Source: a virus
Length of the DNA: 39,463 nucleotides
IMG/VR virus record: IMGVR_UViG_3300042691_033130
Span: 1 to 39,463 of that record
Reading direction: 5' to 3' (one strand)
The notes beneath the pieces are model-generated. The model searched no databases. It had not been told where the DNA came from and worked only from the letters and a program-made list of their open reading frames with translations. Within the stretch, counting starts at the first letter, position 1. Each line of letters begins with the position of its first letter. Below, one piece after another: positions 1,857-38,176 of this stretch. A program made the position numbers and the translations under genes.

Positions 1857-2287
1857 ACTATCCCCCTTTATACTTTGCCTACGGCAGTAACCTAAATCAC
1901 GATCAAATGAGCAGACGTTGCCCTAATGCACGTTTTGTTCAGCGCATGGATCTCAAAGGCTGGCAATTGCACTTTGGAGCTCACGCTACAATTGTGCCCA
2001 AACGTGGCGCAGTGGTTCCGGGGGCTCTTTGGCAAGTGGACCTGATTGATTTCTATGCCCTAGATCGATACGAAGGCTATCCAATCTACTACACACGCCG
2101 CAGATGGCGTCAAGATAATCAACATTTTTTCTTTTACGAGATGACCACACCTGCTGTGGGTGATCCAAGTGTGAACTATGTTCAGGGCATTGTGCAGGGT
2201 TATCAAGACTGTGGCATCACGGAAGATCATTGGCATCAAAAACTTCGACCTTATTTGAAAGAAAGTGTATACTACAATCATGAATGA
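1823..2287 (+). CDS. Gamma-glutamylcyclotransferase-like (GGCT/AIG2 fold) protein
   Basis: The protein begins a few residues before YFAYGSNLN, the substrate-binding signature of the gamma-glutamylcyclotransferase fold, and has a later DRYEGYP segment (usual form LDxxEG) with the conserved acidic residue. About 154 residues is a normal length. These enzymes release 5-oxoproline from gamma-glutamyl amines. The start is uncertain. The frame extends upstream through the amidinotransferase gene with an ATG at 1772, but a TTG at 1823 preceded by GGCGGTGG gives a shorter overlap and the expected N-terminus, so I prefer it. Sitting next to an amidinotransferase and an oxygenase, it may modify the same metabolite. 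Confidence 0.7.
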   Translation: MHHSRHSSRTLDYPPLYFAYGSNLNHDQMSRRCPNARFVQRMDLKGWQLHFGAHATIVPKRGAVVPGALWQVDLIDFYALDRYEGYPIYYTRRRWRQDNQHFFFYEMTTPAVGDPSVNYVQGIVQGYQDCGITEDHWHQKLRPYLKESVYYNHE

Positions 2288-3299
2288 AGCCATACACAGA
2301 ATTGGGTTTGCCTGCAAGTGGCTCACTCACGAGGATGAAGTTGCTGGCAAGCGCCCTGCAGCCACTGATCATAACACTCGTTCAACCACTGTGGCCTGGC
2401 TCAATCGTCAGACTAAAGACGTGGCAGTGGCCAAACTCTGGGAACTGATAGAACACAACATTGCAGCAACCAAACGCTTGGTAGAAAGGGTTGGATTATA
2501 TGATCTCGAACGCCGCATGGTTCGTATTGGTAGTGATATTCTTCCCATGTATACTCAGCCTGATTGGAGCTGGTTTTATCAGCAACCTGATGTTAGAGCG
2601 TATGCCGAGACACATTTTGCTGAAGTGGGACGGGTGGCTCGCGCCTTTGATGTGCGTTTGTCTTTTCATCCTGGCCAATATTGTGTTCTTGCTAGTGACA
2701 ACGACAATATTGTTGAACGCAGTATTGAAGAATTTGAGTATCATGTAGACATGGCACGTTGGATGGGTTATGGCGGCGCATGGCATGATCATGGTTTCAA
2801 GATCAATGTGCATTTGAGCGGCCGCGGTGGTCCAGCAAAATTTCTCCATAGCCTAGGTCGTCTAACGCCCGAAGCAAGGAATTTAATAACAATTGAAAAC
2901 GATGAGATGACATATGGGCTTGATTATACTTTTATTGTGGCTGAGCATTGCGCACTCGTATTGGACATACACCACCATTGGGTCAAAACGGGAGAGTATG
3001 TCGCCCCTAATGATGCTCGCGTGGCTAGGGTCGTGGAGTCTTGGCGTGGTAGCCGTCCTGTACTTCACTATTCAGTTAGTCGCGCTGACATTCTCGTCGA
3101 CCATGACACAAATATTCGACCCGATCTTGATCGACTTCTTGCTCAGGGCTTTAAAAAACAGCAGTTGCGAGCCCACAGCGACTTTTATTGGAACCATGAT
3201 GTAAATCAGTGGGCCTTGAGTTTTCGAGATCAATTTGATATCATGTGCGAAAGCAAGGCCAAGAATCTTGCTCGTGATCAACTCTTAGCATTGGCATAA
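2280..3299 (+). CDS. uvsE: UV damage endonuclease (UvdE/UvsE family)
   Basis: This 339-residue TIM-barrel protein has the UvdE landmarks: an opening IGFACKW, VRIGSDILPM (usual R-x-S-S), SFHPGQYCVLAS, a KINVHLSGRGG strand end, ITIENDE with the metal-binding acid, VLDIHHHW, and HYSVSR near the C-terminus. These enzymes nick 5' of UV photoproducts and some other lesions, so this probably supports repair of the phage genome. An upstream GTG at 2265 is possible, but the ATG at 2280 overlaps the previous stop in the style of its neighbours. The length matches bacterial UvsE. Confidence 0.87.
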   Translation: MNEAIHRIGFACKWLTHEDEVAGKRPAATDHNTRSTTVAWLNRQTKDVAVAKLWELIEHNIAATKRLVERVGLYDLERRMVRIGSDILPMYTQPDWSWFYQQPDVRAYAETHFAEVGRVARAFDVRLSFHPGQYCVLASDNDNIVERSIEEFEYHVDMARWMGYGGAWHDHGFKINVHLSGRGGPAKFLHSLGRLTPEARNLITIENDEMTYGLDYTFIVAEHCALVLDIHHHWVKTGEYVAPNDARVARVVESWRGSRPVLHYSVSRADILVDHDTNIRPDLDRLLAQGFKKQQLRAHSDFYWNHDVNQWALSFRDQFDIMCESKAKNLARDQLLALA

Positions 3300-3937: not shown

Positions 3938-4227
3938 TTGATATTTTTAGACCCACACTTGAATGGATCAAAGATGATTGGGCATCCAATCGTGTGCGTT
4001 TTGTTATTGAGCTGCTGGCTTGGGCTTGCAGTATTGGATGCTCCATCACCATGGCGGTCACAGTTCCTAATCCTCCACTCCTGGCTTTATATCCTGTGTG
4101 GATAACTGCATGCGCTATGTATTCTTGGGCTGCTTGGACTAGAAAATCCTTTGGCATGTTGGCCAACTACTTCTTGCTCACCGCTATTGATATCACTGGG
4201 ATGGTAAGATTACTGTATGGATCTTGA
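3934..4227 (+). CDS. Integral membrane protein, about three helices
   Basis: The product is 97 residues. After a charged N-terminus (FRPTLEWIKDDWASNR) come hydrophobic segments around residues 22-43, 47-65 and 75-92. The ATG at 3934 overlaps the previous TGA (ATGA); a GTG at 3910 would extend it. The aromatic-rich region WITACAMYSWAAWTRKSFG is suggestive of small transporter-like phage proteins, but I cannot assign a family. Confidence 0.55.
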   Translation: MIDIFRPTLEWIKDDWASNRVRFVIELLAWACSIGCSITMAVTVPNPPLLALYPVWITACAMYSWAAWTRKSFGMLANYFLLTAIDITGMVRLLYGS

Positions 4228-4477
4228 CTGTTACTGTTGGGAGTGTCGCAAGGACAATGTTATATTCAAGGCTGATGAGGTAGGTATCAGCATAACCGAA
4301 GGCATGAATAGAATGTTTTTGTGTCCAGTTTGCGGCAACAAACGCTGTCCTCATGCTACCAGTCACCTGGAACCGTGCTCTAATTCAAATGAACCGGGAC
4401 AATTGGGCAGCCATTATGGCATCTACCCAAATCCCAATCGTAAGTTGATAGACTTTGTTAATGCAAAAAAAGCCTAA
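4217..4477 (+). CDS. Zinc-ribbon phage protein
   Basis: This 86-residue protein has two knuckles, C7-W-E-C10 and C36-P-V-C39-G-N-K-R-C44-P-H46, separated by 25 residues. That is a zinc-ribbon layout. The following H-x-x-x-C-S-N-S-N-E-P-G-Q-L-G-S tail is, from memory, a recurrent feature of small phage zinc proteins with an NKRCPHA motif. Binding to nucleic acid or protein is possible, but no function is known. It overlaps the previous gene by 11 bases and ends directly against a convergent gene. Confidence 0.68.
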   Translation: MDLDCYCWECRKDNVIFKADEVGISITEGMNRMFLCPVCGNKRCPHATSHLEPCSNSNEPGQLGSHYGIYPNPNRKLIDFVNAKKA

Positions 4478-4705
4478 TCACTCAGTCTTTTCTTCGGTTT
4501 TCTTTTTACGCGAGGTCTTGACTTTGGTTTTTACCACTTCAACTGCGGCTTTGGCATCATCGCTGTCAATCTTGCCGTCTTTGTTCACGTCAAGCTTGTC
4601 AGTGAAAGTCTGGAGTGGGTGCCCTGATTCTTCATGTTTGCGATCCATCCAAATCCACCAACCAATACCGCCTACTACAATGACTCCAATAATAAACAAT
4701 TCCAT
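4478..4705 (-). CDS. Membrane-anchored single EF-hand protein
   Basis: This reverse-strand 75-residue protein has an N-terminal transmembrane helix (residues 2-20, ending GWWIWM), a short linker, and one canonical 12-residue EF-hand loop at 39-50 with ligands D39, N41, D43, G44, I46, D47 and D50. A lysine-rich tail follows (SRKKKTEEKTE). The strong ribosome-binding site AAAGGAG lies just before the ATG. A single EF-hand tethered to the inner membrane suggests Ca2+ binding or dockerin-like pairing. It is the first reverse-strand gene in the window and converges on the zinc-ribbon gene with no spacer. Confidence 0.68.
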   Translation of the reverse strand: MELFIIGVIVVGGIGWWIWMDRKHEESGHPLQTFTDKLDVNKDGKIDSDDAKAAVEVVKTKVKTSRKKKTEEKTE

Positions 4706-5721: not shown

Positions 5722-6090
5722 ATGTTTACTTTAGATAGCACCATTGATTCAATTCAAAACAGCAAAAAAACCTTTGTCAATCAGTACGTCACTGACGCTG
5801 CGATTGCCAAGAACCTCAACGAAATGGTTGATGCGCAGACTGCTTATGTTAAATCGGTTGTGAAAACCGGTCAAAAAGCAGCTGAACAAATTGGTAATGA
5901 AATTTTGAACGCACAACAAGAAGTAACCAAAACTGCCAAAACTGCTGTTGAACAGATGGTTAATAATGCAGTGATCAAAGATTTAAATGAAAAAATCACC
6001 AAAGACTTTGTGGAAAGCTTTTGGAAAGATGCTTTCAAGTGGACTCAACCAGCTGCTGGCACTGCTAAGAACAGCAAGGCAACTGCTTAA
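5722..6090 (+). CDS. Phasin-like polyhydroxyalkanoate granule protein
   Basis: The 122-residue product is an all-helical, amphipathic, Lys/Ala/Gln-rich protein without membrane segments. The pattern NEMVDAQTAYVKSVVKTGQKAAEQIGNEIL and a low-complexity Ala-rich tail (AAGTAKNSKATA) are what I expect of phasins. These coat polyhydroxybutyrate granules in the cytoplasm and tune granule size and access of depolymerase. The gene has its own promoter with a near-palindromic site and a strong AAGGAG, and ends in TAATG overlapping a 51-residue gene. It could instead be an unrelated coiled-coil protein; the helical pattern and length favour phasin. Confidence 0.68.
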   Translation: MFTLDSTIDSIQNSKKTFVNQYVTDAAIAKNLNEMVDAQTAYVKSVVKTGQKAAEQIGNEILNAQQEVTKTAKTAVEQMVNNAVIKDLNEKITKDFVESFWKDAFKWTQPAAGTAKNSKATA

Positions 6091-6245
6091 TGCAATTTTT
6101 ACAACAAATTTGTCGTTTTCTTGAAACTGCCAATTTCCGAACCGAGTTGGAAAGTTATATAGAAAGCAAGAATCCAAAAACCGCAAGTGATGTTGAATTT
6201 TGGCAAAATCACTGGATGCGCGAACAGCAACACCAACATTTGTAA
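6090..6245 (+). CDS. Small helical protein, 51 residues, phasin-coupled
   Basis: The ATG shares a base with the phasin stop. The product has an aromatic N-terminal helix (MQFLQQICRFLETANF) and a second half containing YIESKNPKTASDVEFWQNHWM, a segment style I associate with short uncharacterised proteobacterial and phage proteins. It is the last gene before the terminator at 6254, so phasin and this protein form a two-gene unit. Function is unknown; a granule-surface or phasin partner role is only positional inference. Confidence 0.6.
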   Translation: MQFLQQICRFLETANFRTELESYIESKNPKTASDVEFWQNHWMREQQHQHL

Positions 6246-6253
6246 TTTTTCCC

Positions 6254-6281
6254 AATCCCGCTTGTGGCGGGATTTTTTTTT
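6254..6281 (+). terminator. Rho-independent terminator
   Basis: An 8-bp perfect stem (AATCCCGC with GCGGGATT) around a 5-base loop is followed by about seven further T after the stem. It closes the phasin unit. Confidence 0.92.
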
Positions 6282-6305
6282 GGGCAAATTTGGGCAGGCT
6301 AACCG

Positions 6306-6334
6306 TTGACCAAAAATCGCATGTCGTTTAATAT
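6306..6334 (+). promoter_or_regulatory. Promoter, TTGACC class, with TAATATACACACA extension
   Basis: TTGACC, 17 bases, TAATAT; the ATG lies 27 bases further with ACAAGGAGC before it. The -10 region TAATATACACACATTG nearly repeats at 16492. Confidence 0.75.
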
Positions 6335-6361
6335 ACACACATTGCAACACAAGGAGCTTTT

Positions 6362-6484
6362 ATGAAATATCTGTTGGTTGTATTGGTCTCGACTGTTATA
6401 GTCGGGTGTGGAACGATCGGTGGTGCGGTATCCGGTGCCGGCCAAGATCTCTCAAAAGCCGGGGAATGGATTAAAAACAAATGA
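6362..6484 (+). CDS. Entericidin-like small lipoprotein
   Basis: This is a 40-residue precursor: MKYLLVVLVSTVIVG signal, lipobox V-I-V-G-C16, then GTIGGAVSGAGQDLSKAGEWIK. The Gly-rich start and G-Q-D-L-x-K-A-G-E ending match the entericidin A/B family, small envelope lipoproteins that form a toxin/antitoxin-like pair in bacteria. The mature peptide would be about 25 residues, lipid-anchored in the outer membrane or periplasm. A promoter at 6306 and ACAAGGAGC drive it, and its stop overlaps the next lipoprotein start (ATGA). It is very short but the lipobox and family pattern make it convincing. Confidence 0.8.
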   Translation: MKYLLVVLVSTVIVGCGTIGGAVSGAGQDLSKAGEWIKNK

Positions 6485-7191
6485 AACAGCGACTTTTACT
6501 CTCTGCAATCGCAGCCGCTTTGGTTACAGGCTGTGCTTCTAACAAACCTGTACAACCAGGTGCGGGCGTTGATATGCCAGCAGGTCCGCAACAGGCCATC
6601 TCAGAACAGCGAGTGGTCAATGACTTCACGCGACAAGGTATCAAGGTGGTGTTTGATCTTCGAGGCAACTTGCAGGCCATTGAAGCCACTGGATATGCGC
6701 CAGTCTGGGGCAACAGCGAAAACGCTGTGCGTGAAGCCTATCGCGTGGCTGAACTTGAAGCCAAGAAATCTCTAAATGATTTCATTAACAAAGAAACCAT
6801 TTCCAGCACAGTGTCAGTGGCCATGGTTAGCCGTAATCTTGAAAAAGCACGTGACAACAAGTTGAACAACTTTGCAACCAATCGCAATCGTGATCAAGTG
6901 GCCAGTCAGGTCACAGATGACGAACTGGAAAAAAGTCTTGATCAACCGCTCACAGATGCCAACAAAGGTGATGTGAATCGTGAAGAAAACACTGCTAGCA
7001 GAAATGATGCTGTGAACATTGCCAGTCGTGTGAGCACCACGATCATGACCACTAACAAAGGTATCTTGGGTGGACTGTATCTTGTGGAAGCTGAATCTAT
7101 CAATGGTGGACGCAATGTCAAGGCAGTGTATCGTTGGGATACCAAGAGCGCTGCTGCTCGTCCGCAGATCCGTAACATGATGGCGCAATGA
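6481..7191 (+). CDS. Lipoprotein, 236 residues
   Basis: A signal peptide ends in the lipobox LVTGC18. After a Pro/Gly-rich linker comes a domain containing NAVREAYRVAELEAKKSLNDFI, a helix typical of LPP20/FlgT-N-like periplasmic proteins where A-x-x-x-A-E-x-x-A-x-x-x-L is conserved. The C-terminal region carries GILGGLYLVEAESINGGRNVKAVYRWD. It is translationally coupled on both sides (ATGA overlaps) with the entericidin-like and secreted-protein genes, so the three probably act together in the envelope. Exact role is unknown. Confidence 0.68.
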   Translation: MKQRLLLSAIAAALVTGCASNKPVQPGAGVDMPAGPQQAISEQRVVNDFTRQGIKVVFDLRGNLQAIEATGYAPVWGNSENAVREAYRVAELEAKKSLNDFINKETISSTVSVAMVSRNLEKARDNKLNNFATNRNRDQVASQVTDDELEKSLDQPLTDANKGDVNREENTASRNDAVNIASRVSTTIMTTNKGILGGLYLVEAESINGGRNVKAVYRWDTKSAAARPQIRNMMAQ

Positions 7192-8252
7192 AGCGCCTAG
7201 CGGCTGCGGCTGTATTGAGCCTGTGCGTGATTGCTGCGCAGGCTCAAACCACAGTGCAACAAATCCTTACGCCCAGTCCTTGGACCATTGGCATCATGGT
7301 GGCCCAATGGATCATGAAAGAAGAGCGTAAGATTTTCTATGTTGAGGTCACAGCACAAGGCGCCACTCTTGAAGAAGCCCGGAAACAGGCCATGCGAATG
7401 GCTGTGGAACGTGCCGTGGGATCGGTGGCTAGCACAGCCACAGAAGCCAAGAATTCTCGCTTGGTTCGAGATGAAATCATTGTGTATTCGTCAGGTTATG
7501 TTGACGATTACCGAGTGATCAATCAGCAGTTGGTAAATGGTCAAACTCAGGTGCAAATGAAAATTTGGGTGAGTCATAGCAAGTTGGCCAATAGACTGCT
7601 AGGCGAAAGCAAAACCACAGGGCAAATTGAAGGCGGGCGCATTTCAGCTCAGATTGAAACTTTTCAGCATGAAAGAAAATCTGGCGATCAATTGCTGCTG
7701 CAAGTGTTACGCGATTATCCCAGCAAGAGTTTTCACGTGGTAATGGACAAAACTCAGATATGGGTGCATACTGATAGAGAGACTTACATCACCATACCTT
7801 TCCGACTGTACTGGGACAAAAATTACATTGAAAGTTTTTCCGAAACCATGCGTTTGATCCAACAGCGCAAAGACTGCGACTCTTGGATACTGCCATGCAC
7901 AGCCACCCGAGTGGTCAAAGTAGCCAACGACCGATATGGTTTTGATGATGAACAGGCTGTTAATCTCATGTGGCAAGAGATTCAGTTGAGTAGACCGCAG
8001 ATCCTGCTCAAACTTTATGATCGATCCAATCAATTGCAGTGGCAAAACTGCTTCACACTGCCAGAGCTGGACAGCTGGGACAGTGCTTGGAATGCCTGGG
8101 TGTATTTTAACGGATCTACTGTGAGCATTGATCCTTACCGCAAGCAGTTGGCCAATGTCACACTGCCTACCAAGAGCCTGCCCATGCAAAATCTGGACCG
8201 AGCTGATATTGAAATAGTGCGTATGTCCAATTGTCCCAAACCTCGTAGATAA
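7188..8252 (+). CDS. Secreted periplasmic protein, 354 residues (FlgT-N/LPP20-like segment)
   Basis: The N-terminal signal peptide is cleaved probably after AQA (MKRLAAAAVLSLCVIAAQA). A segment TLEEARKQAMRMAVERAVGS is the classic helix of FlgT-N/LPP20-type domains, also echoed in the preceding lipoprotein. The rest is mixed alpha/beta with two paired cysteine positions (KDCDSWILPC), possibly a disulfide. As the third gene of an envelope operon it likely works with the lipoprotein upstream, perhaps modifying the outer membrane of the infected cell. No enzymatic motif is visible. Confidence 0.66.
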   Translation: MKRLAAAAVLSLCVIAAQAQTTVQQILTPSPWTIGIMVAQWIMKEERKIFYVEVTAQGATLEEARKQAMRMAVERAVGSVASTATEAKNSRLVRDEIIVYSSGYVDDYRVINQQLVNGQTQVQMKIWVSHSKLANRLLGESKTTGQIEGGRISAQIETFQHERKSGDQLLLQVLRDYPSKSFHVVMDKTQIWVHTDRETYITIPFRLYWDKNYIESFSETMRLIQQRKDCDSWILPCTATRVVKVANDRYGFDDEQAVNLMWQEIQLSRPQILLKLYDRSNQLQWQNCFTLPELDSWDSAWNAWVYFNGSTVSIDPYRKQLANVTLPTKSLPMQNLDRADIEIVRMSNCPKPRR

Positions 8253-8292
8253 TCATCTGCTGCAATAGTACAATACGCTATTGGAGACAACT

Positions 8293-8868
8293 ATGGCCAC
8301 CGCAGATAAAAGTTCAAATGATTACCTAGCACCCAGCGACGCCTTGCCCGACCATGGCATCTATGTGCTCATGAACAGTATAGATGATGAAACTGTTAAA
8401 CCCGTGATCGAATGGTTGTTGCATGAAAACTATGTGCGAAAGAAAAAGCATAAAGAACTGCTGTTGATGATCTGTTCTGCAGGAGGCGATCTAGAAACTG
8501 CGTTTGCTCTAATAGACGTCATGACTTCCAGTAACATTCCAATCAAGACCGTGGGACTGGGCAGTGTGGCCAGTTGTGGCCTAATGATTTTTCTAGCAGG
8601 CACCCGTGGCCGTAGAATTCTCACACCCAATACCAGTATACTCAGTCATCAGTTCAGTTGGGGTAACTCAGGCAAGGCGCATGAATTATTTGCCACAATC
8701 AAAGAGTTTCAATTAGTCGAACAACGCATGTTGGAACACTACAAAAAATGCACCGGACTTGATGATGACAAGATCAAAAAGGTTCTGTTGCCACCTCAGG
8801 ATGTGTATCTTTCAGCACAAGAAGCCTTGGATTACGGAATCTGTGATCACGTGGCCAACTTGCCTTAA
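8293..8868 (+). CDS. ClpP-type serine protease, divergent copy
   Basis: This 191-residue protein has the ClpP fold: MICSAGGD (oxyanion-loop region), the nucleophile S94 in GSVASCGLM, H119 in LSHQFSWG, and D170 in QDVYLSAQEALDYG, so the triad is complete. Sequence around the triad differs from bacterial ClpP (ASCG for ASMG, HQFS for HQPL), indicating a phage lineage. It could make a tetradecamer alone or with the second ClpP at 10460. The ATG at 8293 follows TTGGAGA at good distance; the frame also opens with TTG at 8281, less likely. Its 3' end overlaps a convergent gene by 4 bases. Confidence 0.86.
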   Translation: MATADKSSNDYLAPSDALPDHGIYVLMNSIDDETVKPVIEWLLHENYVRKKKHKELLLMICSAGGDLETAFALIDVMTSSNIPIKTVGLGSVASCGLMIFLAGTRGRRILTPNTSILSHQFSWGNSGKAHELFATIKEFQLVEQRMLEHYKKCTGLDDDKIKKVLLPPQDVYLSAQEALDYGICDHVANLP

Positions 8869-10412
8869 CTTCTGCGTTTTCTTCCTAGAGATTTCTCAGT
8901 ACCCATGGGTTCGGTCTTGAAAGCCTTGACTGTGCTGCGTTTGGGTTTCAAGTCCGGACTGTCAATATCCGCTTGAGCCGACTGAGGGTCGTCAAGAGTT
9001 TTGCCAGTGGGATTCACAGTGAATGTGAACTTCTGTTTGATACCAGTGCTATAATAACCCTTGTCTGGGTCAAGTGTAATTGCACTAACCAGTGATCCAG
9101 GCCATTTGCTAGTGAACTTTTGCAAAGTCCACTGTTGGCCACGTGCTGATACCTTAGTATAGATCTGAACCAAAGCACTGTTGTTCATGATAATGGCTGC
9201 GTCTTTACCAAAGTTGGTATTGTTATTCACATGCTTGGCCACTTCAAATGCCACGCTGGCCAACACATGATAGAACAAATTCACACTCTGCGGTTCGCGA
9301 GTGTTTCTTGACTGAGCCAATTTGATAATTTTCTTTGAAGGACTGATTCCATTAACAGTGACGTCACCGATGGATGCCAGCGGCAACGGTCTCACACGCT
9401 TGAGTGATTTGATAAATTCAGCATCCTGGTCTGTAATGATCTTGAACTGTCGTGCTAATATTAAAGGACCATCTACCATGCTGGAGTTGGCAATGGTTTC
9501 CAAGATGTCAATAGTGTCAGTGAGTTTGCGAGTGAGTTTACGCCCTTCGGCAGTTTGTTGCAGTTCTTTATAACTGTTTAGAATATTCACTGCCGACGCG
9601 GCAGCTCCTCGACCACCCTTGCTGCTGACCTTGATTGATCTACCATCAGGTGATACCATTAAACTATCACTTAGGCCTTCGGTTTTACTGGAACCAAAAT
9701 TTATTGTGGTATCTGCGAATCCACCGTCACCAAGAAAAATCTCTCCAGCCTGTGCAGCTTCGCCTTCGAATTGTCCAGTTTGCAGCGCAATTGGCTGTAG
9801 TAGTTCACAGAAGTAATCTTGGAACGCACTGATGTCCATTTCACTGGGCCTGACAAAACTGAATGGCAGTTCGCCACCTGAGGCTAGGTGTTGAGTGACT
9901 GTGGTCAGTGAGCTACCTGGAAATTTGGCCTCAACCTGTCTCACGATATCAGCAGCGGTCAAGTTGTCAAGTTCGGTCAGTATGTCTTGAGGAGTTGCAC
10001 TGCTTTGTGTTTTGACAGCGGCCTTGCCTTTGTATCTATAGTCACCCAGACCGGTTTGATTGTCCCAGTAATTGCCTCTTGGATCAGGGCTGAGTTCTTT
10101 GTCAAAGTATCTAATAAAATACACAGGACGACCATTTGCGTCTTCAAATTCAGCTATGCCAAAAGATCTAGTCTGCTTGCGCCACCAATTGGTTTCTACA
10201 GGCCGACTTCCTAGAGTCTGCGTTACTTGATTTACTGCCTGCTGCGTTTGCTCATTTGAATCGTATTTGCCGCCACCTTCAGGGAAGAATTGGATGCTTC
10301 TAAAACGGATTTCGTTGCCCGCACCATCAGCAAACACGTCTCCCGGTTTGCGATTGGCAATGCCCGTGCTTTCGGTTAAGATATCAAATTTGTCAAGTAG
10401 ATTGCGTATCAT
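8865..10412 (-). CDS. Large hypothetical protein, 515 residues
   Basis: It is on the reverse strand, wedged between the two clpP genes. The chosen ATG at 10412 gives MIRNLLDKFDILTES, an N-terminus I associate with large phage proteins of unknown role. The middle holds D249-S-L-M-V then I-K261-V-S-S-K265-G-G-R-G-A-A, a spacing loosely like a PD-(D/E)XK nuclease core, but the second acid is missing, so this is weak. The C-terminal 60 residues are basic and disordered (KPKRSTVKAF...SLGRKRRS). A virion protein or DNA-binding effector is possible. A longer start at 10460 exists but overlaps clpP. Confidence 0.62.
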   Translation of the reverse strand: MIRNLLDKFDILTESTGIANRKPGDVFADGAGNEIRFRSIQFFPEGGGKYDSNEQTQQAVNQVTQTLGSRPVETNWWRKQTRSFGIAEFEDANGRPVYFIRYFDKELSPDPRGNYWDNQTGLGDYRYKGKAAVKTQSSATPQDILTELDNLTAADIVRQVEAKFPGSSLTTVTQHLASGGELPFSFVRPSEMDISAFQDYFCELLQPIALQTGQFEGEAAQAGEIFLGDGGFADTTINFGSSKTEGLSDSLMVSPDGRSIKVSSKGGRGAAASAVNILNSYKELQQTAEGRKLTRKLTDTIDILETIANSSMVDGPLILARQFKIITDQDAEFIKSLKRVRPLPLASIGDVTVNGISPSKKIIKLAQSRNTREPQSVNLFYHVLASVAFEVAKHVNNNTNFGKDAAIIMNNSALVQIYTKVSARGQQWTLQKFTSKWPGSLVSAITLDPDKGYYSTGIKQKFTFTVNPTGKTLDDPQSAQADIDSPDLKPKRSTVKAFKTEPMGTEKSLGRKRRS

Positions 10413-10430
10413 ATAAATGTGTTGTATAAT
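10402..10430 (+). promoter_or_regulatory. Promoter of second clpP; divergent with the 515-residue gene
   Basis: TTGCGT, 17 bases, TATAAT, 29 bases before the clpP ATG, followed by ACAAGGAGT. The palindrome GTATAATAC could serve as -10 for the opposite strand too, and the forward -35 falls inside the reverse gene's first codons. Confidence 0.5.
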
Positions 10431-10459
10431 ACTGTACTTATCTAAAACAAGGAGTCCCA

Positions 10460-11050
10460 ATGCCCAATCTAGTGCCTATCGTTCTTGAGCAAACCAGCAA
10501 AGGCGAACGCAGTTATGACATCTACAGCCGACTTTTGCGTGATCGAATCATCATGCTTGACGGAGAAGTAACACAGCATTCTGCCAGTCTTGTGGTAGCT
10601 CAAATGCTGTTTTTAGAAAGTGAAGATCCTAAAAAACCAATTAATCTCTATATCAACAGCCCGGGCGGGTCTGTTACAGCAGGCATGAGCATCTATGATA
10701 CCATGCAGTTTATTCAGTGCCCGGTGCATACCATTGTGATGGGGCAGGCAGCGTCCATGGGCTCACTGTTGGCCACAGCTGGGGAAAAAGGACATCGTTA
10801 CATACTGCCCAACGCTCGACACATGATACATCAACCCTTGGGCGGAGCAAGTGGACAGGCCACTGACGTTGAAATACAAGCTCGTGAGCTGTTGCGTTGG
10901 AAAACAGTGTTGACTGATATCTATTCAAAGCATACCGGACTTGATGCCGAGGCTTTGAAAGCCGACATGGAGCGAGATAACTTCATGACAGCCGAACAGT
11001 CTGTGGCCTATGGTCTGGCTGACAAATTGATTACCAAGAGAGAGTTATAA
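10460..11050 (+). CDS. clpP: ATP-dependent Clp protease proteolytic subunit
   Basis: This is a canonical 196-residue Clp[22 protein letters not shown], nucleophile S99 in [16 protein letters not shown]124 in MIHQPLGG, and D173 in [18 protein letters not shown]. The N-terminus ([27 protein letters not shown]) is the axial-loop region needed to dock an unfoldase. No ClpX/ClpA gene is present in the window, so it would borrow a host unfoldase or serve as a processing protease. Its stop overlaps the asparagine-synthase-like gene (TAATG). It is much closer to bacterial ClpP than the copy at 8293. Confidence 0.95.
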
Positions 11051-12231
11051 TGTTCTTTTGGATCAGTAAAGAGCCCCGGGCCATGATGAGTCAACACACA
11101 CGTTACTTTCATTGGTCAGTGGATACTGACGAAGGATGGCAGGTTAGCCGTACCTGGGATAGATTTCTAATTTACAAGGGTTATACTGACGAAGGTCAAT
11201 TGCCTAATCGAGTGTGGGAGATAGCGGATGCACCTTGGGCTTCAATCAAAGGCAACTTTTGTATACTTGATATTCAAGATTCTGGTATAAGAGTCATACA
11301 CAATGACTGCAGAAGTTTTCCTCTTTGGTATGACAATCAACAAGGCTTAACCAATTTAGTGCCTTTAACACACAGTGTCTGGGCCGACAGCTCGGTGCAT
11401 ATCAATCAAGATCTTGCGCTCACTGAAATCAAACATGACATCATTGGTGACTTGCCACAGAGCACAGCACTAGTGAATTATGTATTAGATACCATTGATC
11501 ACATTCTAATCACAAAGTTCAAAACCTTTTTTGAACACAACCCATTGCCAGTGCGTATTTTTCTCAGCGGAGGTATTGATACTACCTTGATGTGGAGTTA
11601 TCTACACAAACTTGGAATCAAACATGAAGTTGTACTAGCTGAACATCTTGAGTTTGACAAGTTCTGGGTACGCAATCATCATAGACTCACAGAACAGAAC
11701 TGGGCATACAAACAAATACATCACTGGCGTGAGCCAACTGTGCTGGTTAGTGGTTGCCCTGGTGATGAATTTAGTCTACGCAATCCTGGCATGGCCAATA
11801 TGTTGAGTCTATGCCACGACGGACGTATGTTGCATGAGTGCATTGAAACTGACGACTTACACTATTATTACTTCAATTCACAGAAAAATCGCGAGCTGTT
11901 TATACAACAAAGACAAGATCCTGAAGTTGCCAAGCTGATTCGTGATCCTGACACGCTTAACAGGCATCTTTTAGATCGTGCCGCAAACGATCACCAACAC
12001 TGGCATCTTGGTAACACATTGACATTTACACCCATGCGTGATCTTGTGATTCTCAAAGAATTCTTGAGCTTGCCTTTTGATGTCATGCGCTCACAAATGT
12101 TAAACAGCAAGATCAGTCGTTTGTTGATAGAACGCAACTGTCCAAAAGCTCTAGATATTTTAAGCACACAGAAGAATCATGAGAACTATTTGGAAAATCT
12201 AACATGTCTACTTCCACTAGAAGTAACTTGA
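11050..12231 (+). CDS. Asparagine-synthase-like ATP-pyrophosphatase protein
   Basis: This 393-residue protein has the N-type ATP-pyrophosphatase P-loop S173-G-G-I-D177-T-T in RIFLSGGIDTTLMW, and a following SGCPGDEFSLRNP segment where asparagine synthases have their second nucleotide motif. No N-terminal Cys glutaminase nucleophile follows the initiator Met, so it probably does not use glutamine directly. The first 130 residues look like a degenerate glutaminase-like or substrate domain. Such proteins amidate or form amide bonds through an acyl-AMP. In-frame ATGs at 11083 and 11086 are alternatives. It converges on the radical SAM gene with a 15-base overlap. Confidence 0.74.
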   Translation: MFFWISKEPRAMMSQHTRYFHWSVDTDEGWQVSRTWDRFLIYKGYTDEGQLPNRVWEIADAPWASIKGNFCILDIQDSGIRVIHNDCRSFPLWYDNQQGLTNLVPLTHSVWADSSVHINQDLALTEIKHDIIGDLPQSTALVNYVLDTIDHILITKFKTFFEHNPLPVRIFLSGGIDTTLMWSYLHKLGIKHEVVLAEHLEFDKFWVRNHHRLTEQNWAYKQIHHWREPTVLVSGCPGDEFSLRNPGMANMLSLCHDGRMLHECIETDDLHYYYFNSQKNRELFIQQRQDPEVAKLIRDPDTLNRHLLDRAANDHQHWHLGNTLTFTPMRDLVILKEFLSLPFDVMRSQMLNSKISRLLIERNCPKALDILSTQKNHENYLENLTCLLPLEVT

Positions 12232-13386
12232 TACCTCTGGTAGGTAATCTCTAATGTTGATGTGTTTGGCCTGATCCATTTGGTAAATGAAATCTTTCAT
12301 GCGTTGATGCTTGATAGCATCAAAAGGCATGTCCTCTAGATTGTCTCTGATACTGGCCAAAGCGTTTTGAGCATTTATACGTTGATACTTTTCAATATCA
12401 GCATGCTCTAGATTTTTTATTGTGCTGTTCAATCTAGTAATGATAGCAGGTCTACTCTGCAATAGGATAGCACTTTCATCCATGAACCAAGTGTTGTTCA
12501 CTGTGTGCGCCGCACCAAAACTCACCACTTCCGGCCAATCCTTCGCAAGCCATTCCACAAGCTCGCTCACCAAATGAAAATTGTACACACTGGTAGTGAT
12601 GTTCACTCTTACAGCAACATTGGGCAAGGCACGACAGTGCAAATAATTTGAGTACACTGTGTCCCAATCAGTACCATACCTAATGTACTCTGCTGGTCTG
12701 CCAATGGCGTCTAGACTAAAGATCATGGTCACGCTACCAGGATAGGCAGCAAGTAGTTCACGATCAACACAGCTACCGTTGGTAAAGATCATGAGATTGG
12801 ACTTGCATGATTGTTCAACCAGCCACGCTAGAAATCTTTTGCAGGCAGGATCATAAAAGGGTTCTCCTCCCAACACCACAATATCGCGGATGCGCGGTAA
12901 TACTGCGCCAATCTTGTCTAGATCCAGTTGGTGTTTGACCTGACGAATTTCTATCACTGCATCATCGCCTGCTGTCCAATCCGCGGTGGTATCAATTCCA
13001 GCTTTGCGGTAAAAATCAGTCACACGACTGCTGGCTTCGGGCCAGCAGGTTTGGCAAGCAAAATTGCACACATTGCCCGGACGTATTTCCAAGGTAAGAT
13101 CATCTGCTTGATAGTGTGCATAACTGCTTTCCGCATTCAATCGCATGCTGTCTCCGCGACCTTGTGATTCAAAGTGTTCACACACATGACATTCTGATGG
13201 CCATTGCTCTTGGCTGAGACTTTGTTGTAACTTTTGCAACTCTGGTCGTTGATGCCAGGTCACAAGATCAACTTGGTCCAAGTGCATGTTTGAACGCCAG
13301 GCATGATCACCATGAAAACTGCAACATGGTCGTACCAAACGGTTATAATCTATGGCTATACCGTGCTGAAGAAATTGACATCGCAT
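12217..13386 (-). CDS. Radical SAM protein with extra Cys clusters (twitch/SPASM-like)
   Basis: This 389-residue reverse-strand protein has the radical SAM signature C107-N-F-A-C111-Q-T-C114, a following VVLGGEPFYDPA (GGEP motif for SAM), and MIFSLDAIG. Cysteines upstream at the N-terminus (VRPCCSFHG) and in ECHVCEHF resemble the auxiliary-cluster region of twitch-type radical SAM proteins, here placed before the core. These enzymes modify peptides or sugars. I choose ATG at 13386; a TTG at 13419 would add 11 residues but overlaps the forward promoter. Together with the adjacent asparagine-synthase-like gene it suggests a peptide or glycan modification pair. Confidence 0.82.
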   Translation of the reverse strand: MRCQFLQHGIAIDYNRLVRPCCSFHGDHAWRSNMHLDQVDLVTWHQRPELQKLQQSLSQEQWPSECHVCEHFESQGRGDSMRLNAESSYAHYQADDLTLEIRPGNVCNFACQTCWPEASSRVTDFYRKAGIDTTADWTAGDDAVIEIRQVKHQLDLDKIGAVLPRIRDIVVLGGEPFYDPACKRFLAWLVEQSCKSNLMIFTNGSCVDRELLAAYPGSVTMIFSLDAIGRPAEYIRYGTDWDTVYSNYLHCRALPNVAVRVNITTSVYNFHLVSELVEWLAKDWPEVVSFGAAHTVNNTWFMDESAILLQSRPAIITRLNSTIKNLEHADIEKYQRINAQNALASIRDNLEDMPFDAIKHQRMKDFIYQMDQAKHINIRDYLPEVSSYF

Positions 13387-23189: not shown

Positions 23190-23218
23190 TTGTGTCTATG
23201 ATATATACAGTTTATAAT
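23190..23218 (+). promoter_or_regulatory. Promoter of the peroxiredoxin operon
   Basis: TTGTGT, 17 bases, TATAAT, 35 bases before the ATG, with AAGGAG. The gap 23130-23253 holds only this promoter and the operator-like site. Confidence 0.65.
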
Positions 23219-23229
23219 GCACTGCAATA
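23218..23229 (+). promoter_or_regulatory. Candidate operator TGCACTGCAATA (copy 2)
   Basis: Identical 12-base word to 5669-5680. It overlaps the last base of the -10 box and covers the likely transcription start, an ideal repressor position. Shared control with the phasin unit is inferred. Confidence 0.45.
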
Positions 23230-23253
23230 TAAATTTCAATCAAGGAGAAATGT

Positions 23254-23787
23254 ATGAAAACAGTTTATGAAAAGCTAGGCAGCTTTACAGTCACTGGTGT
23301 TAATCCAGGGTCTGACCAATTTTTTGATATCACTGAAAAATCTTTTGAAGGCAAATGGAAAGTGATTGTGTTTTATCCAAAAGATTTTACATTTGTTTGC
23401 CCTACAGAAATCGTGGCCTATGACAAATTGTTCCAAGACTTTGCGGATCGCGATGCGGTGTTGCTCACAGGATCAACAGACAACGAATTCTGCAAACTGG
23501 CATGGCAAAAGTCTCACGAAGATTTGAGTAAGATCAAGCATATTCAATTCGCTGACACACAGCGTGGTATGCACAGTCTTGCACAAGAACTTGGAGTGTT
23601 CCACAGTCCAGCAGGTGCCGCACTTCGCGCCACATTCATTGTTGATCCAGACAACGTTATCCAGCACGTGACTGTGAACAACCTTGATGTTGGTCGCTCG
23701 CCAGAAGAAACACTGCGTGTGTTAGATGCATTGCAAACAGGTGAACTTTGTGCTTGCAATCGTACAGTTGGTGGCGAAACACTATGA
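23254..23787 (+). CDS. ahpC: AhpC-type 2-Cys peroxiredoxin
   Basis: The 177-residue enzyme has VFYPKDFTFVCPTEIVAYDK with peroxidatic C49 (P-x-x-x-T/S-x-x-C), and C-terminal C166-A-C168-N in ELCACNRTVGGETL as resolving cysteine candidates. It resembles AhpC types that pair with AhpD rather than AhpF. It reduces H2O2, organic peroxides and peroxynitrite in the cytoplasm. Gene order ahpC, cytochrome c, ahpD with ATGA overlaps makes one operon, driven by the promoter at 23190. This would protect the infected cell during oxidative stress. AhpC in a phage-like genome is uncommon. Confidence 0.9.
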   Translation: MKTVYEKLGSFTVTGVNPGSDQFFDITEKSFEGKWKVIVFYPKDFTFVCPTEIVAYDKLFQDFADRDAVLLTGSTDNEFCKLAWQKSHEDLSKIKHIQFADTQRGMHSLAQELGVFHSPAGAALRATFIVDPDNVIQHVTVNNLDVGRSPEETLRVLDALQTGELCACNRTVGGETL

Positions 23788-24089
23788 GTTGGTTTGTGCT
23801 ACAGCTGAGCCTGGTGTTGCTCATGATTTACAGTGGCACATCCTTGGCCAACGACGCAGAGTCACTGGCCAAGCAAAAGGCCTGTCTAGGCTGCCATAGC
23901 GTTGAACACATTGGTATCAGCTATCCGCCTGCACTAGTTCGAGTGGCAGAAAAACATCGCGATAATGCCGAACACATCAAAACTGTGATAAGAAACGGCA
24001 AAGGAAAAATGCCTGCTCATCCCACGTTAACCGATGCGGAAATCTTGACATTGACAAATTGGATCTTGAGTTTAGGAGAAACCAAATGA
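23784..24089 (+). CDS. Periplasmic class I c-type cytochrome
   Basis: The 101-residue precursor has a signal peptide (residues 1-22, cleaved near SLA/ND). The mature part carries C34-L-G-C37-H38, the heme-c attachment site, and M76 in GKGKMPAHP as the axial ligand, with a C-terminal helix ILTLTNWILSL. This is a small cytochrome c551/c552 type. It requires the host heme-ligation system. The gene starts on the ahpC stop (ATGA) and ends on the ahpD start (ATGA). A periplasmic electron carrier between two cytoplasmic thiol-peroxidase genes is unexpected; it could be an electron relay for respiration or peroxidases. Confidence 0.87.
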   Translation: MSWFVLQLSLVLLMIYSGTSLANDAESLAKQKACLGCHSVEHIGISYPPALVRVAEKHRDNAEHIKTVIRNGKGKMPAHPTLTDAEILTLTNWILSLGETK

Positions 24090-24598
24090 GTTGGGTTGAT
24101 ACAATTAAACAAGGCTTACCAGACTATGCAAAAGACACCAAGCTTAATCTTGACGCGGTTATTAACCGCAGTACCCTGGATCCGGCTGAAGCAAACTGTT
24201 TGGCACTGGCTGCGGCTATGGCCACAGGCAATGGCAAACTTGTCAGCTTTATCCAATCTAGTATTGAAGATGCCACCGAGCGAGATGCGGCGCTGACCGC
24301 TGCTGCGATCATGGCGCAGAACAACGTATGGTATCCTTATGTTGAAATGGCTGATGATCCAAATCTCACCGGGTTACCAGCACAGTTACGCATGAACGCT
24401 ATTGCTAGTCATGGTGGCACTACCAAGGCTAGATTTGAAGCATATAGTCTAGCAGCTAGTATAGTTGGTAAATGTCACTTCTGCGTTAAGGCACACTACG
24501 AAACACTCAAGAAGGAAGGCTACACTGTGGAACAACTAAGAGATATCGGACGAATAGCAGCAACCATAACGTCTGTGGCTCGAGTACTCAACAGTTGA
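24086..24598 (+). CDS. ahpD: AhpD-type alkylhydroperoxidase
   Basis: A 170-residue all-helical carboxymuconolactone-decarboxylase-fold protein with the AhpD motif C130-H-F-C133-V-K-A-H137, in ASIVGKCHFCVKAHYE. In the known pathway AhpD is reduced by lipoylated dihydrolipoamide acyltransferase and in turn reduces AhpC. The partner ahpC is encoded two genes upstream in the same operon. A GC-rich terminator lies directly after its stop codon. The start ATG at 24086 overlaps the cytochrome stop; it shares the first four amino acids (MSWV/F) with the cytochrome start. Confidence 0.88.
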   Translation: MSWVDTIKQGLPDYAKDTKLNLDAVINRSTLDPAEANCLALAAAMATGNGKLVSFIQSSIEDATERDAALTAAAIMAQNNVWYPYVEMADDPNLTGLPAQLRMNAIASHGGTTKARFEAYSLAASIVGKCHFCVKAHYETLKKEGYTVEQLRDIGRIAATITSVARVLNS

Positions 24599-24602
24599 TT
24601 TC

Positions 24603-24623
24603 AGCCCCGAAAGGGGCTTTTTT
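24603..24623 (+). terminator. Rho-independent terminator of the redox operon
   Basis: AGCCCC and GGGGCT with a GAAA tetraloop, then six T (counting the last stem base). It sits 5 bases after the ahpD stop and 14 bases before the next start. Confidence 0.9.
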
Positions 24624-24636
24624 ATGGAGCACACGA

Positions 24637-24816
24637 TTGATCGAATCACACAAGAGAACCATAGCAAGAGCAGTTTGTTGGAGAATCATAGCCACTTTAA
24701 TCACGGCCATATGGGCCGGCTGGAGCGGAGCTATCATGGCCAATATTGTATTAACAGTGTTACACTATGCCCATGAACGAGTCTGGCTGCGAATTAAATG
24801 GGGCCAAGATGTTTGA
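24637..24816 (+). CDS. DUF2061-like small membrane protein
   Basis: In the first residues after a TTG start at 24637 (GGAG 8 bases upstream), the protein reads LIESHKRTIARAVCWRIIATLITAIWAGW...ANIVLTVLHYAHERVWLRIKWG. That matches DUF2061: E-S-x-x-R-T-[IL]-A-[KR]-A-x-x-W-R, two membrane helices, and a final H-E-R-[VL]-W-x-x-I-x-W-G. These small inner-membrane proteins are widespread in proteobacteria but uncharacterised. The frame is open further upstream through the terminator, but TTG with GGAG fits the family's usual start. Transcription must read through the terminator or begin within it. Confidence 0.72.
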   Translation: MIESHKRTIARAVCWRIIATLITAIWAGWSGAIMANIVLTVLHYAHERVWLRIKWGQDV

Positions 24817-36855: not shown

Positions 36856-37406
36856 AATCTGCATTGGAAAACTATCCAATGTCAGATAATACCGAAACCA
36901 AGGAAGATATTCCTCCAAGTTTGTTTCAGTCTGATCGTTTAGACTTTTCTGCGCTGGACAGTTTAAGTATTCAATCGCTGACCACTGCTCAAATCAGCAC
37001 GATTGATCTTAGTTCTTTGAATTCTTTAGGCTCAATAAGTCCTAATGTCTACACCATCACAGGCGGCAGTGGCGGCACGTATGCAGGCGGTGGAGGTGGT
37101 GGTGGAGGTAGCGGTGGTGTGTATATATCTCCCAATACCATGCCAATGCAGAACGGTACGACCACGGGCTGGACTTACTCTAATCCATATAATGGCACTG
37201 TTAAAATACAAGCTGATGATCTAGAGATCAATGGTAAAAGTGTAATGAAGACTCTAGAAAGAATAGAGATTCAATTGGGTCTATTGGATCATGATGATAA
37301 ACTGGAACAGGACTGGAAAGAGCTGAGAGACTTGGGCGACAAATATCGCCGTGCGAAAAAACGCATCGAAGACAAACTAGAAACATTTAACCGATTGAAA
37401 AAATGA
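36822..37406 (+). CDS. Phage protein with glycine-rich middle, 194 residues
   Basis: Three parts: an acidic helical/Ser-Leu-rich N-terminal part, a Gly-rich linker at residues 81-99 (GGSGGTYAGGGGGGGGSGG), and a C-terminal region QADDLEINGKSVMKTLERIEIQLGLLDHDDKLEQDWKELRDLGDKYRRAKKRIEDKLETF. The last part is a pattern I recall from phages (E-I-x-G-x-S-[VL]-x-x-T-L-x-x-I-E-x-[RQ]-L-x-[LM]-L). It looks structural or assembly related. Start could be 36879. The 3' end overlaps nadE by 4 bases. Confidence 0.66.
   Translation: MDSTEEKYQQLKSALENYPMSDNTETKEDIPPSLFQSDRLDFSALDSLSIQSLTTAQISTIDLSSLNSLGSISPNVYTITGGSGGTYAGGGGGGGGSGGVYISPNTMPMQNGTTTGWTYSNPYNGTVKIQADDLEINGKSVMKTLERIEIQLGLLDHDDKLEQDWKELRDLGDKYRRAKKRIEDKLETFNRLKK
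37086..37119 (+). repeat. GGN codon repeat in the glycine-rich gene
   Basis: About ten GG pairs spaced 3 bases apart (GGCGGTGGAGGTGGTGG...). Two-tetrad G-quadruplexes and slippage are possible. Confidence 0.5.
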
Positions 37407-38176
37407 AAGCAAAAAAACGTATCAAGCACATAGTCAAGTGGATCAAGAACTATGCGTATGATCATAAGATTCAAAAACTTGTGGTGGGCGTGAGTGGCGG
37501 TATTGACAGTGCAGTGGTCAGTACTCTTTGCGCTCATACTGGAATACCAACTATAGTGCTTAGTATGCCAATTCATCAGAGTGAACATACACATAATCTA
37601 AGCCGAGCACATTGTGAGTGGTTAGTAGAAAATTTCTCCAACGTGCAAGACCGTACTTTTGATCTTACCACGGTGTTTGATGAGTTCAATAAACTTTTCG
37701 TAGACCATCGCAGCGATCTAGCATTTGCCAACAGTCGCTCAAGACTGCGCATGATGTGTTTGTATCAAGTGGCTCAAAGTGAAAACGGTATTGTGGTTGG
37801 TACTGGCAATCTTGTAGAAGACTTTGGTCTGGGATTCTTTACCAAATATGGCGATGGCGGCGTGGATATCAGTCCCATTGGCAACTGCTTGAAAACTGAA
37901 GTTTGGAAAATGGGCAGCGAACTAGGTGTCTTACTAGAAATTATAGATGCCGCGCCCACAGACGGACTCTGGGACGATCAGCGCACAGATGAGGATCAAC
38001 TTGGCATGAGTTATAGGGATCTTGAGCGCATGATGGAAATTGACACATGGTCTAACAAAAAAATTCTTGAATCGGTCACCCCAGAAGATTTGGAAAAATT
38101 GCTCAAATATCGCGTCATACGGCGCCGAAATCTGCATAAAATGACACCAATTCCGGTGTGCATGTTTGACAAATAA
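37403..38176 (+). CDS. nadE: NH3-dependent NAD+ synthetase
   Basis: A 257-residue protein with the ATP-pyrophosphatase P-loop S31-G-G-I-D-S-A in VVGVSGGIDSAVVS, LANANSR-equivalent ANSRSRLRMMCLYQVA, GTGNLVEDFGLGFFTKYGDGGVDISPIGNCLKTEVW, and PTDGLWDDQRTDEDQLGMSYRDLE. These match NadE from end to end. It has no N-terminal nitrilase glutaminase domain, so it should use ammonia. It makes NAD+ from NaAD in the last step of NAD synthesis. In a phage it would keep NAD pools up and could counter NAD-depleting defences. It overlaps the preceding gene by 4 bases. Confidence 0.93.
   Translation: MKAKKRIKHIVKWIKNYAYDHKIQKLVVGVSGGIDSAVVSTLCAHTGIPTIVLSMPIHQSEHTHNLSRAHCEWLVENFSNVQDRTFDLTTVFDEFNKLFVDHRSDLAFANSRSRLRMMCLYQVAQSENGIVVGTGNLVEDFGLGFFTKYGDGGVDISPIGNCLKTEVWKMGSELGVLLEIIDAAPTDGLWDDQRTDEDQLGMSYRDLERMMEIDTWSNKKILESVTPEDLEKLLKYRVIRRRNLHKMTPIPVCMFDK

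Follow-up and report, generated by a model that had tools for sequence, protein, structure and literature searches.

Gene content of the operon

Why would a virus carry the gene for an apparently exported cytochrome c between the genes for AhpC and AhpD, two proteins of cytoplasmic peroxide reduction? The question is raised by IMG/VR virus record G000 (39,463 bases; the window hereafter, meaning the whole stretch of DNA that was analyzed), in which three plus-strand genes follow one another: ahpC (23254..23787; a typical 2-Cys peroxiredoxin of 177 aa), a cytochrome c gene (23784..24089; 101 aa) and ahpD (24086..24598; alkylhydroperoxidase D, 170 aa). A sequence-only reading of this DNA had described the three open reading frames, the ATGA overlaps and the catalytic residues, all of which are present in the sequence and supported by Pfam; the overlaps couple both junctions, ahpC/cytochrome and cytochrome/ahpD. 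The same reading had placed the genes between one promoter and one terminator, of which the terminator holds and the promoter is probable. The intrinsic terminator (24603..24624, plus strand; AGCCCC-GAAA-GGGGCT-TTTTTA) matches the consensus with a fold z of -2.1, and equivalent hairpins are found at the end of the corresponding operon in contig L002 and behind the cytochrome gene in contig L006. Upstream, TTGTGT-17 bp-TATAAT (23190..23218, plus strand) is probably the sigma-70-like, host-type promoter of the operon. It received no call in a generic sigma-70 scan, and the stretch around it is homologous to the sequences that precede rubrerythrin in the sister phages L010 and L006 and ahpC in L009, where the counterpart reads TTGACA/TATAAT (alignment score reached by 0 of 500 shuffles for each of the three). 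We rejected a T4 late promoter (TATAAATA) before ahpC, which occurs at chance level across 101 ahpC upstream regions, and the lone near match to it in the window (ATATAAAT at 23227) is at chance level too.

Past the terminator, a gene for a DUF2061-like small membrane protein (24595..24816, plus strand; weak Pfam match, E 0.0012, below cut-off) probably belongs to the same island as a separate unit, and its homologues hold the same position behind the cytochrome gene in L006 and behind ahpD in L002. This cargo island also collects SGNH, DUF2061, aldolase-like and NifS-like genes. Among PHROGs, AhpC and the cytochrome match unannotated families only, and AhpD matches none.

Phage origin of the window

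By sequence comparison, we assign the window to a large uncultured T4-like aquatic phage, because its genes from about 0 to 31 kb are collinear, at 36-98% protein identity, with those of G007, a 156,620-base record that bears a gp23 gene. G007 and a second record, G006, each encode the T4 gp23 major capsid protein (PF07068, E about 1e-100; 5e-100 for G007); no gp23-type capsid gene lies within the 39-kb window itself. Related records that share these peroxide genes are as long as 262-400 kb and contain terminase genes. The collinearity with G007 rules out a bacterial-chromosome origin, which the sequence-only reading had named as the finding that would overturn it. Neither AhpD nor the cytochrome matched any INPHARED phage, so the phage group appears to be uncultured. 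Elsewhere, the window encodes two ClpP-type proteases (8293-8868 and 10460-11050), the second of which shares 98% identity with the corresponding G007 protein, a higher value than elsewhere in the window, as well as a UV-damage endonuclease UvdE (2265-3299), a radical-SAM protein (12217-13386) and an NAD synthetase (37403-38176). A weak phasin-like match at 5722-6090 (PF09361, E 2e-4, below cut-off) possibly points to a function at polyhydroxyalkanoate granules of the host.

Properties of the three proteins

In M. tuberculosis, AhpD hands electrons from lipoamide to AhpC, and the two form a cytoplasmic pair. The phage AhpC (PF00578, E 7e-23) has M. tuberculosis AhpC as its closest solved relative (2bmx, E 1.4e-40) and carries the cysteines expected of the AhpD-dependent type, namely the peroxidatic C49 within FTFVCPTE and the resolving CxC, C166/C168, within ELCACN; a fourth cysteine, C80, had gone unmentioned in the earlier reading. 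Against the AhpF-dependent equivalog TIGR03137 it scores 120.6 bits, far under the curated score of 272 bits, which is in line with an AhpD-dependent protein. The phage AhpD (PF02627, E 1e-12) aligns with M. tuberculosis AhpD (1gu9, E 5e-23), and its C130, C133, H137 and E118 are invariant across 13 phage AhpDs; His132 of the M. tuberculosis proton relay is missing, the window having H131-F132 there. Its score falls below the curated value for TIGR00777 (120 against 192 bits) and above that for the core domain TIGR00778 (32.9 against 27.8 bits). Both proteins lack an export signal. The AhpC-AhpD systems of M. tuberculosis and Burkholderiales and that of the phage share the gene order, the AhpC residues C49/C166/C168 and the AhpD CxxC, His and Glu, whereas the phage copies form their own family (window AhpD shares 72-91% identity with AhpDs of other phages and 53-61% with bacterial ones), have CHFC (C130-H-F-C133) in place of CSHC, and have a cytochrome c gene interposed. 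In L002, a degenerate second AhpC paralogue with a YVFPEE motif and without the peroxidatic cysteine lies behind the DUF2061 gene (5989-6525), and several other AhpD loci also hold a second ahpC-like gene.

The cytochrome (PF13442, E 5e-10; PF00034, E 6e-6) has a signal peptide followed by a single haem motif, CLGCH (C34, C37, H38), and a distal methionine, M76. These three features place the protein, as predicted from sequence, in the periplasm, and the export signal, CxxCH motif, distal methionine and helical core assign it to the class I cytochromes c. Among solved proteins, c551/c552 cytochromes are nearest to it by sequence; the structure model is moderate (pLDDT 70) and its Foldseek matches to c6 and SorU are not significant (E above 0.05). 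It shares the signal peptide, CxxCH, distal methionine and a mature domain of about 80 residues with the c551/c552/c6/SorU group, but differs from them in having two extra residues ahead of the PPA stretch and a shorter loop ahead of the methionine, and forms a separate, supported clade. The signal peptide of the window protein begins with MSW and has no positive charge at its N-terminal end, whereas four of five relatives start with MK. Forty residues, including C34, C37, H38 and M76, are invariant in the six phage lineages that carry the gene. Between them, dN is 0.14-0.37 and dS about 1.5 or more where computable, giving dN/dS of about 0.05-0.2 in those comparisons, with dS near saturation; these values indicate that the phage cytochrome is kept by purifying selection.

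The sequence-only reading had suggested that the operon links cytoplasmic peroxide reduction to respiratory electron flow. A direct electron link between AhpC/AhpD and the cytochrome is unlikely, because the inner membrane would separate AhpC/AhpD from the cytochrome and a cytoplasmic lipoamide route is known for AhpD.

Comparison with host genomes

The trio could have been captured whole from a host that already possessed ahpC-cytochrome-ahpD, and host ahpC-ahpD is an obvious source of the flanking genes: in a scan of 84,980 species, in which bacterial AhpD relatives were found with two motifs (one being GKCHF), the best cellular relatives were those of Burkholderiales (53-61% identity). Among the best 80 of these bacterial AhpD loci, ahpC stands directly upstream of ahpD in 77, and in none of the 77 pairs does a cytochrome gene separate them. 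The genomes of 399 Burkholderiales and 398 Pseudomonadota contained no close relative of the phage cytochrome; two bacterial matches (52-56 bits) are c551-like, lie on short stretches and have no peroxide genes in view, and the best match in 369 genomes of the class reached 48 bits. The cytochrome also occurs in phages that have no ahpC or ahpD at that place. Capture of the whole trio is therefore unsupported in the genomes examined, and we consider it highly improbable, although a rare host case may exist beyond the best 80 loci. The search for the three-gene order that the sequence-only reading had proposed has thus been run and did not find it to be a common host arrangement among the best 80 AhpD loci, and the view that a cytochrome in this position is unusual is upheld. 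In the data searched, the cytochrome family was found in phages only.

Distribution of the cytochrome among phages

Viral AhpD scans returned at least 600 matches, and we examined 160 locus rows, partly overlapping, among the matches listed. The ahpC-ahpD pair without a cytochrome is a common arrangement in these uncultured phages: ahpC lies no more than 2 kb upstream of ahpD in 148 of the 160 rows, and in the first scan it precedes ahpD in nearly all loci that reach far enough upstream, those without it beginning inside or just before ahpD. The AhpC-AhpD pair itself is therefore no exceptional trait of this phage group. Genes standing between the two are mostly small SGNH-type genes, and otherwise DUF2061-like, aldolase-like, BI-1-like or NifS-like (names assigned by eye, except SGNH and DUF2061). 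The cytochrome is rare in these surroundings, appearing in 2 of the 160 partly overlapping AhpD rows and in 4 of 80 viral rubrerythrin loci, in both cases among the matches listed. This rarity speaks against a functional tie, since it means that the peroxide genes do not need the cytochrome.

Seen from the cytochrome, the association is recurrent. The family comprises 11 contigs (the window and 10 viral contigs) in six lineages (window; L002-L005; L006-L008; L009; L010; L104), and a peroxide scavenger adjoins the cytochrome in 10 of the contigs and five of the lineages. The window and L009 have the order ahpC-cytochrome-ahpD, L002 has ahpC-SGNH-cytochrome-ahpD, L006 has rubrerythrin-DUF3501-SGNH-cytochrome and L010 has rubrerythrin-GNAT-cytochrome; the locus in the window, L006 and L010 goes back to common descent, and these three do not count as independent cases. 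In the exception, L104, the cytochrome gene lies between nrdB and pstS with no peroxide gene nearby. Four further contigs (L011-L014) were left out because they match over a 31-residue segment only, which in L013 belongs to a 509-aa protein that lacks CxxCH and is encoded next to a probable terminase gene.

These patterns bear on the possibility that a cargo hotspot carries the cytochrome as an independent passenger, which aids respiration or some other process and whose position between ahpC and ahpD is meaningless. Unrelated small genes share the island, the cytochrome does without peroxide genes in L104, a different cytochrome c occurs elsewhere in the genomes of other phages, and part of the association could be mimicked by one gain shared among the window, L006 and L010. 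Adjacency in 10 of 11 contigs, in operons that do not form one clade, argues the other way. We regard the passenger explanation as unlikely, yet it has to be taken seriously, given the promiscuity of the hotspot and the lack of a peroxide gene near the cytochrome in L104; in so promiscuous an island, neighbourhood may mean little.

The L104 stretch (7012-10815) holds nrdA/nrdB, the cytochrome gene, pstS and a porin-like gene, and constitutes another envelope cargo cluster. Cytochromes of other subfamilies were also seen, one c551-like and located after a DnaB-like helicase gene (L409 1489-1785, in record G397), the other longer and located near glyA and about 400 bp from an SdhB gene (L416 9357-9776, in record G410).

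Exchange of the scavenger and history of the operon

In G007, both flanks of the operon are collinear with the window, yet rubrerythrin replaces ahpC; ahpD is absent from this locus and the cytochrome gene occupies the same place as in the window. Scavengers have thus been swapped behind one homologous promoter region while the cytochrome was retained. How the cytochrome came to this position is suggested by the junctions. The ahpC/ahpD overlap in relatives without the cytochrome reads ACACTATGAGTTGGGTTGA, and the cytochrome gene of the window starts with ATGAGTTGG (23784..23792, plus strand), identical to the start of ahpD (24086-24094). From these letters, the cytochrome gene appears to be lodged within an ahpC-ahpD pair that is older and was itself coupled by ATGA, and to have taken over its start from ahpD, which would explain the odd MSW signal peptide. 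The order of events may have been entry of the cytochrome into the pair or assembly of the pair around a resident cytochrome.

Mapping the cytochrome-bearing rows on the AhpD tree takes two changes, and a single clade of the window, L009 and L002 is rejected (AU test, p = 1e-5). The cytochrome-bearing ahpC-ahpD operons are thus not one clade, which means that the association arose, or was lost, repeatedly. In the cytochrome tree, L009 pairs with L104 (support 99/97), away from the window, and the test of a sister relationship between the window and L009 gave p = 0.077, so that the incongruence between the cytochrome and AhpD trees is suggestive only.

Proposed role during infection

We propose that the locus is a cargo (auxiliary-metabolism) operon of a T4-like phage that relieves oxidative stress and supports respiration, a reading to which we give even chances. 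It draws on the scavenger swap behind homologous promoters, the 10-of-11 adjacency, the absence of a single clade and the purifying selection, and on the presence of respiratory parts near peroxide genes in related phages (SdhB in G412 and G410). Transcription would start at the host-type promoter, and translation of the three genes would be coupled. In the cytoplasm during infection, AhpC would reduce both hydrogen peroxide and organic peroxides, and AhpD would re-reduce AhpC with electrons from host lipoamide dehydrogenase complexes. The cytochrome would be exported, loaded with haem by the host maturation machinery, and would supplement a small c-type carrier of the host, taking electrons from the bc1 complex to haem-copper oxidases or a periplasmic peroxidase. 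The benefit might be sustained ATP production and a chain kept from over-reduction, a source of more peroxide. Of the functions offered by the sequence-only reading, keeping the infected cell respiring while peroxide is removed fits best, given cytochrome c, SdhB and rubrerythrin in related phages. Against our proposal are the rarity of the cytochrome beside AhpD and rubrerythrin and its position beside nrdB and pstS in L104.

Since neither an oxidase (PF00115) nor a cytochrome c peroxidase (PF03150) is encoded in 22 related phage records, a phage-encoded partner of either kind was rejected and the partners of the cytochrome must be those of the host. This point also bears on the main rival explanation, in which the cytochrome donates electrons to a periplasmic di-haem cytochrome c peroxidase of the host and the operon covers peroxide in both compartments. 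In Pseudomonas, c551/c552 cytochromes donate to such peroxidases, and the phage cytochrome has c551/c552 proteins as its closest solved relatives; the rival would also account for the frequent pairing with peroxide scavengers. However, the 22 phage records lack a gene for such a peroxidase, and the distal-methionine loop is shorter in the phage cytochrome than in c551. We rate this donor role as rather unlikely. A bolder version of our proposal, a peroxide-respiration module of the phage's own in which the cytochrome is fixed and the scavenger exchanged and the two form an electron route dedicated to peroxide reduction, with no known cellular counterpart, seems to us distinctly improbable.

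Under the cargo-operon proposal, some phages would manage both the respiration and the peroxide stress of the infected cell. If this is true, peroxide defence and the respiratory chain join the host functions carried by large aquatic phages, in parallel to photosynthesis in cyanophages. The exchange of scavengers with the cytochrome kept also leads to a testable claim, namely that the phage requires a peroxide scavenger in combination with a respiratory carrier.

Full-length genes for SdhB-like iron-sulfur subunits lie at L297 4446-5153 (record G412) and L416 8235-8942 (record G410). In G412, which also has a terminase gene, the order is rubrerythrin, full-length SdhB, GNAT and a Prx5-like peroxiredoxin.

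Relation to known systems

Auxiliary metabolic genes in T4-like phages are known; the phage-only cytochrome, the scavenger swap and the SdhB parallels distinguish this case, and we found no prior description of a peroxide scavenger combined with a cytochrome in the open literature searched. That phages supply single electron-transfer components to the host chain is described in two papers (PMC5082946, PMC8190135), with cyanophage genes for photosynthetic electron transport and phages carrying soxC/soxD (Kieft et al., 2021; PMC8190135) as examples there. The component found here, in contrast, is a small, soluble cytochrome c linked to peroxide scavengers, and its carriers are T4-like phages with betaproteobacterial AhpDs as the nearest cellular relatives of their own AhpD.

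An aerobic-type rubrerythrin-DUF3501(-RFO) cluster has been described, in which the electron route to rubrerythrin forms without RFO is an open question (Cardenas et al., 2016; PMC5114695). The same order of rubrerythrin and then DUF3501 replaces ahpC in sister phages such as L006. The phages L006 and L010 add a cytochrome, whereas in 30 Burkholderiales loci no short CxxCH protein lies within 1.5 kb of DUF3501. It is speculation that the phage cytochrome bears on the electron route of the RFO-less rubrerythrins. In L006, DUF3501 (3985-4587) is located directly behind rubrerythrin, and 27 such viral ORFs were seen in partly overlapping loci.
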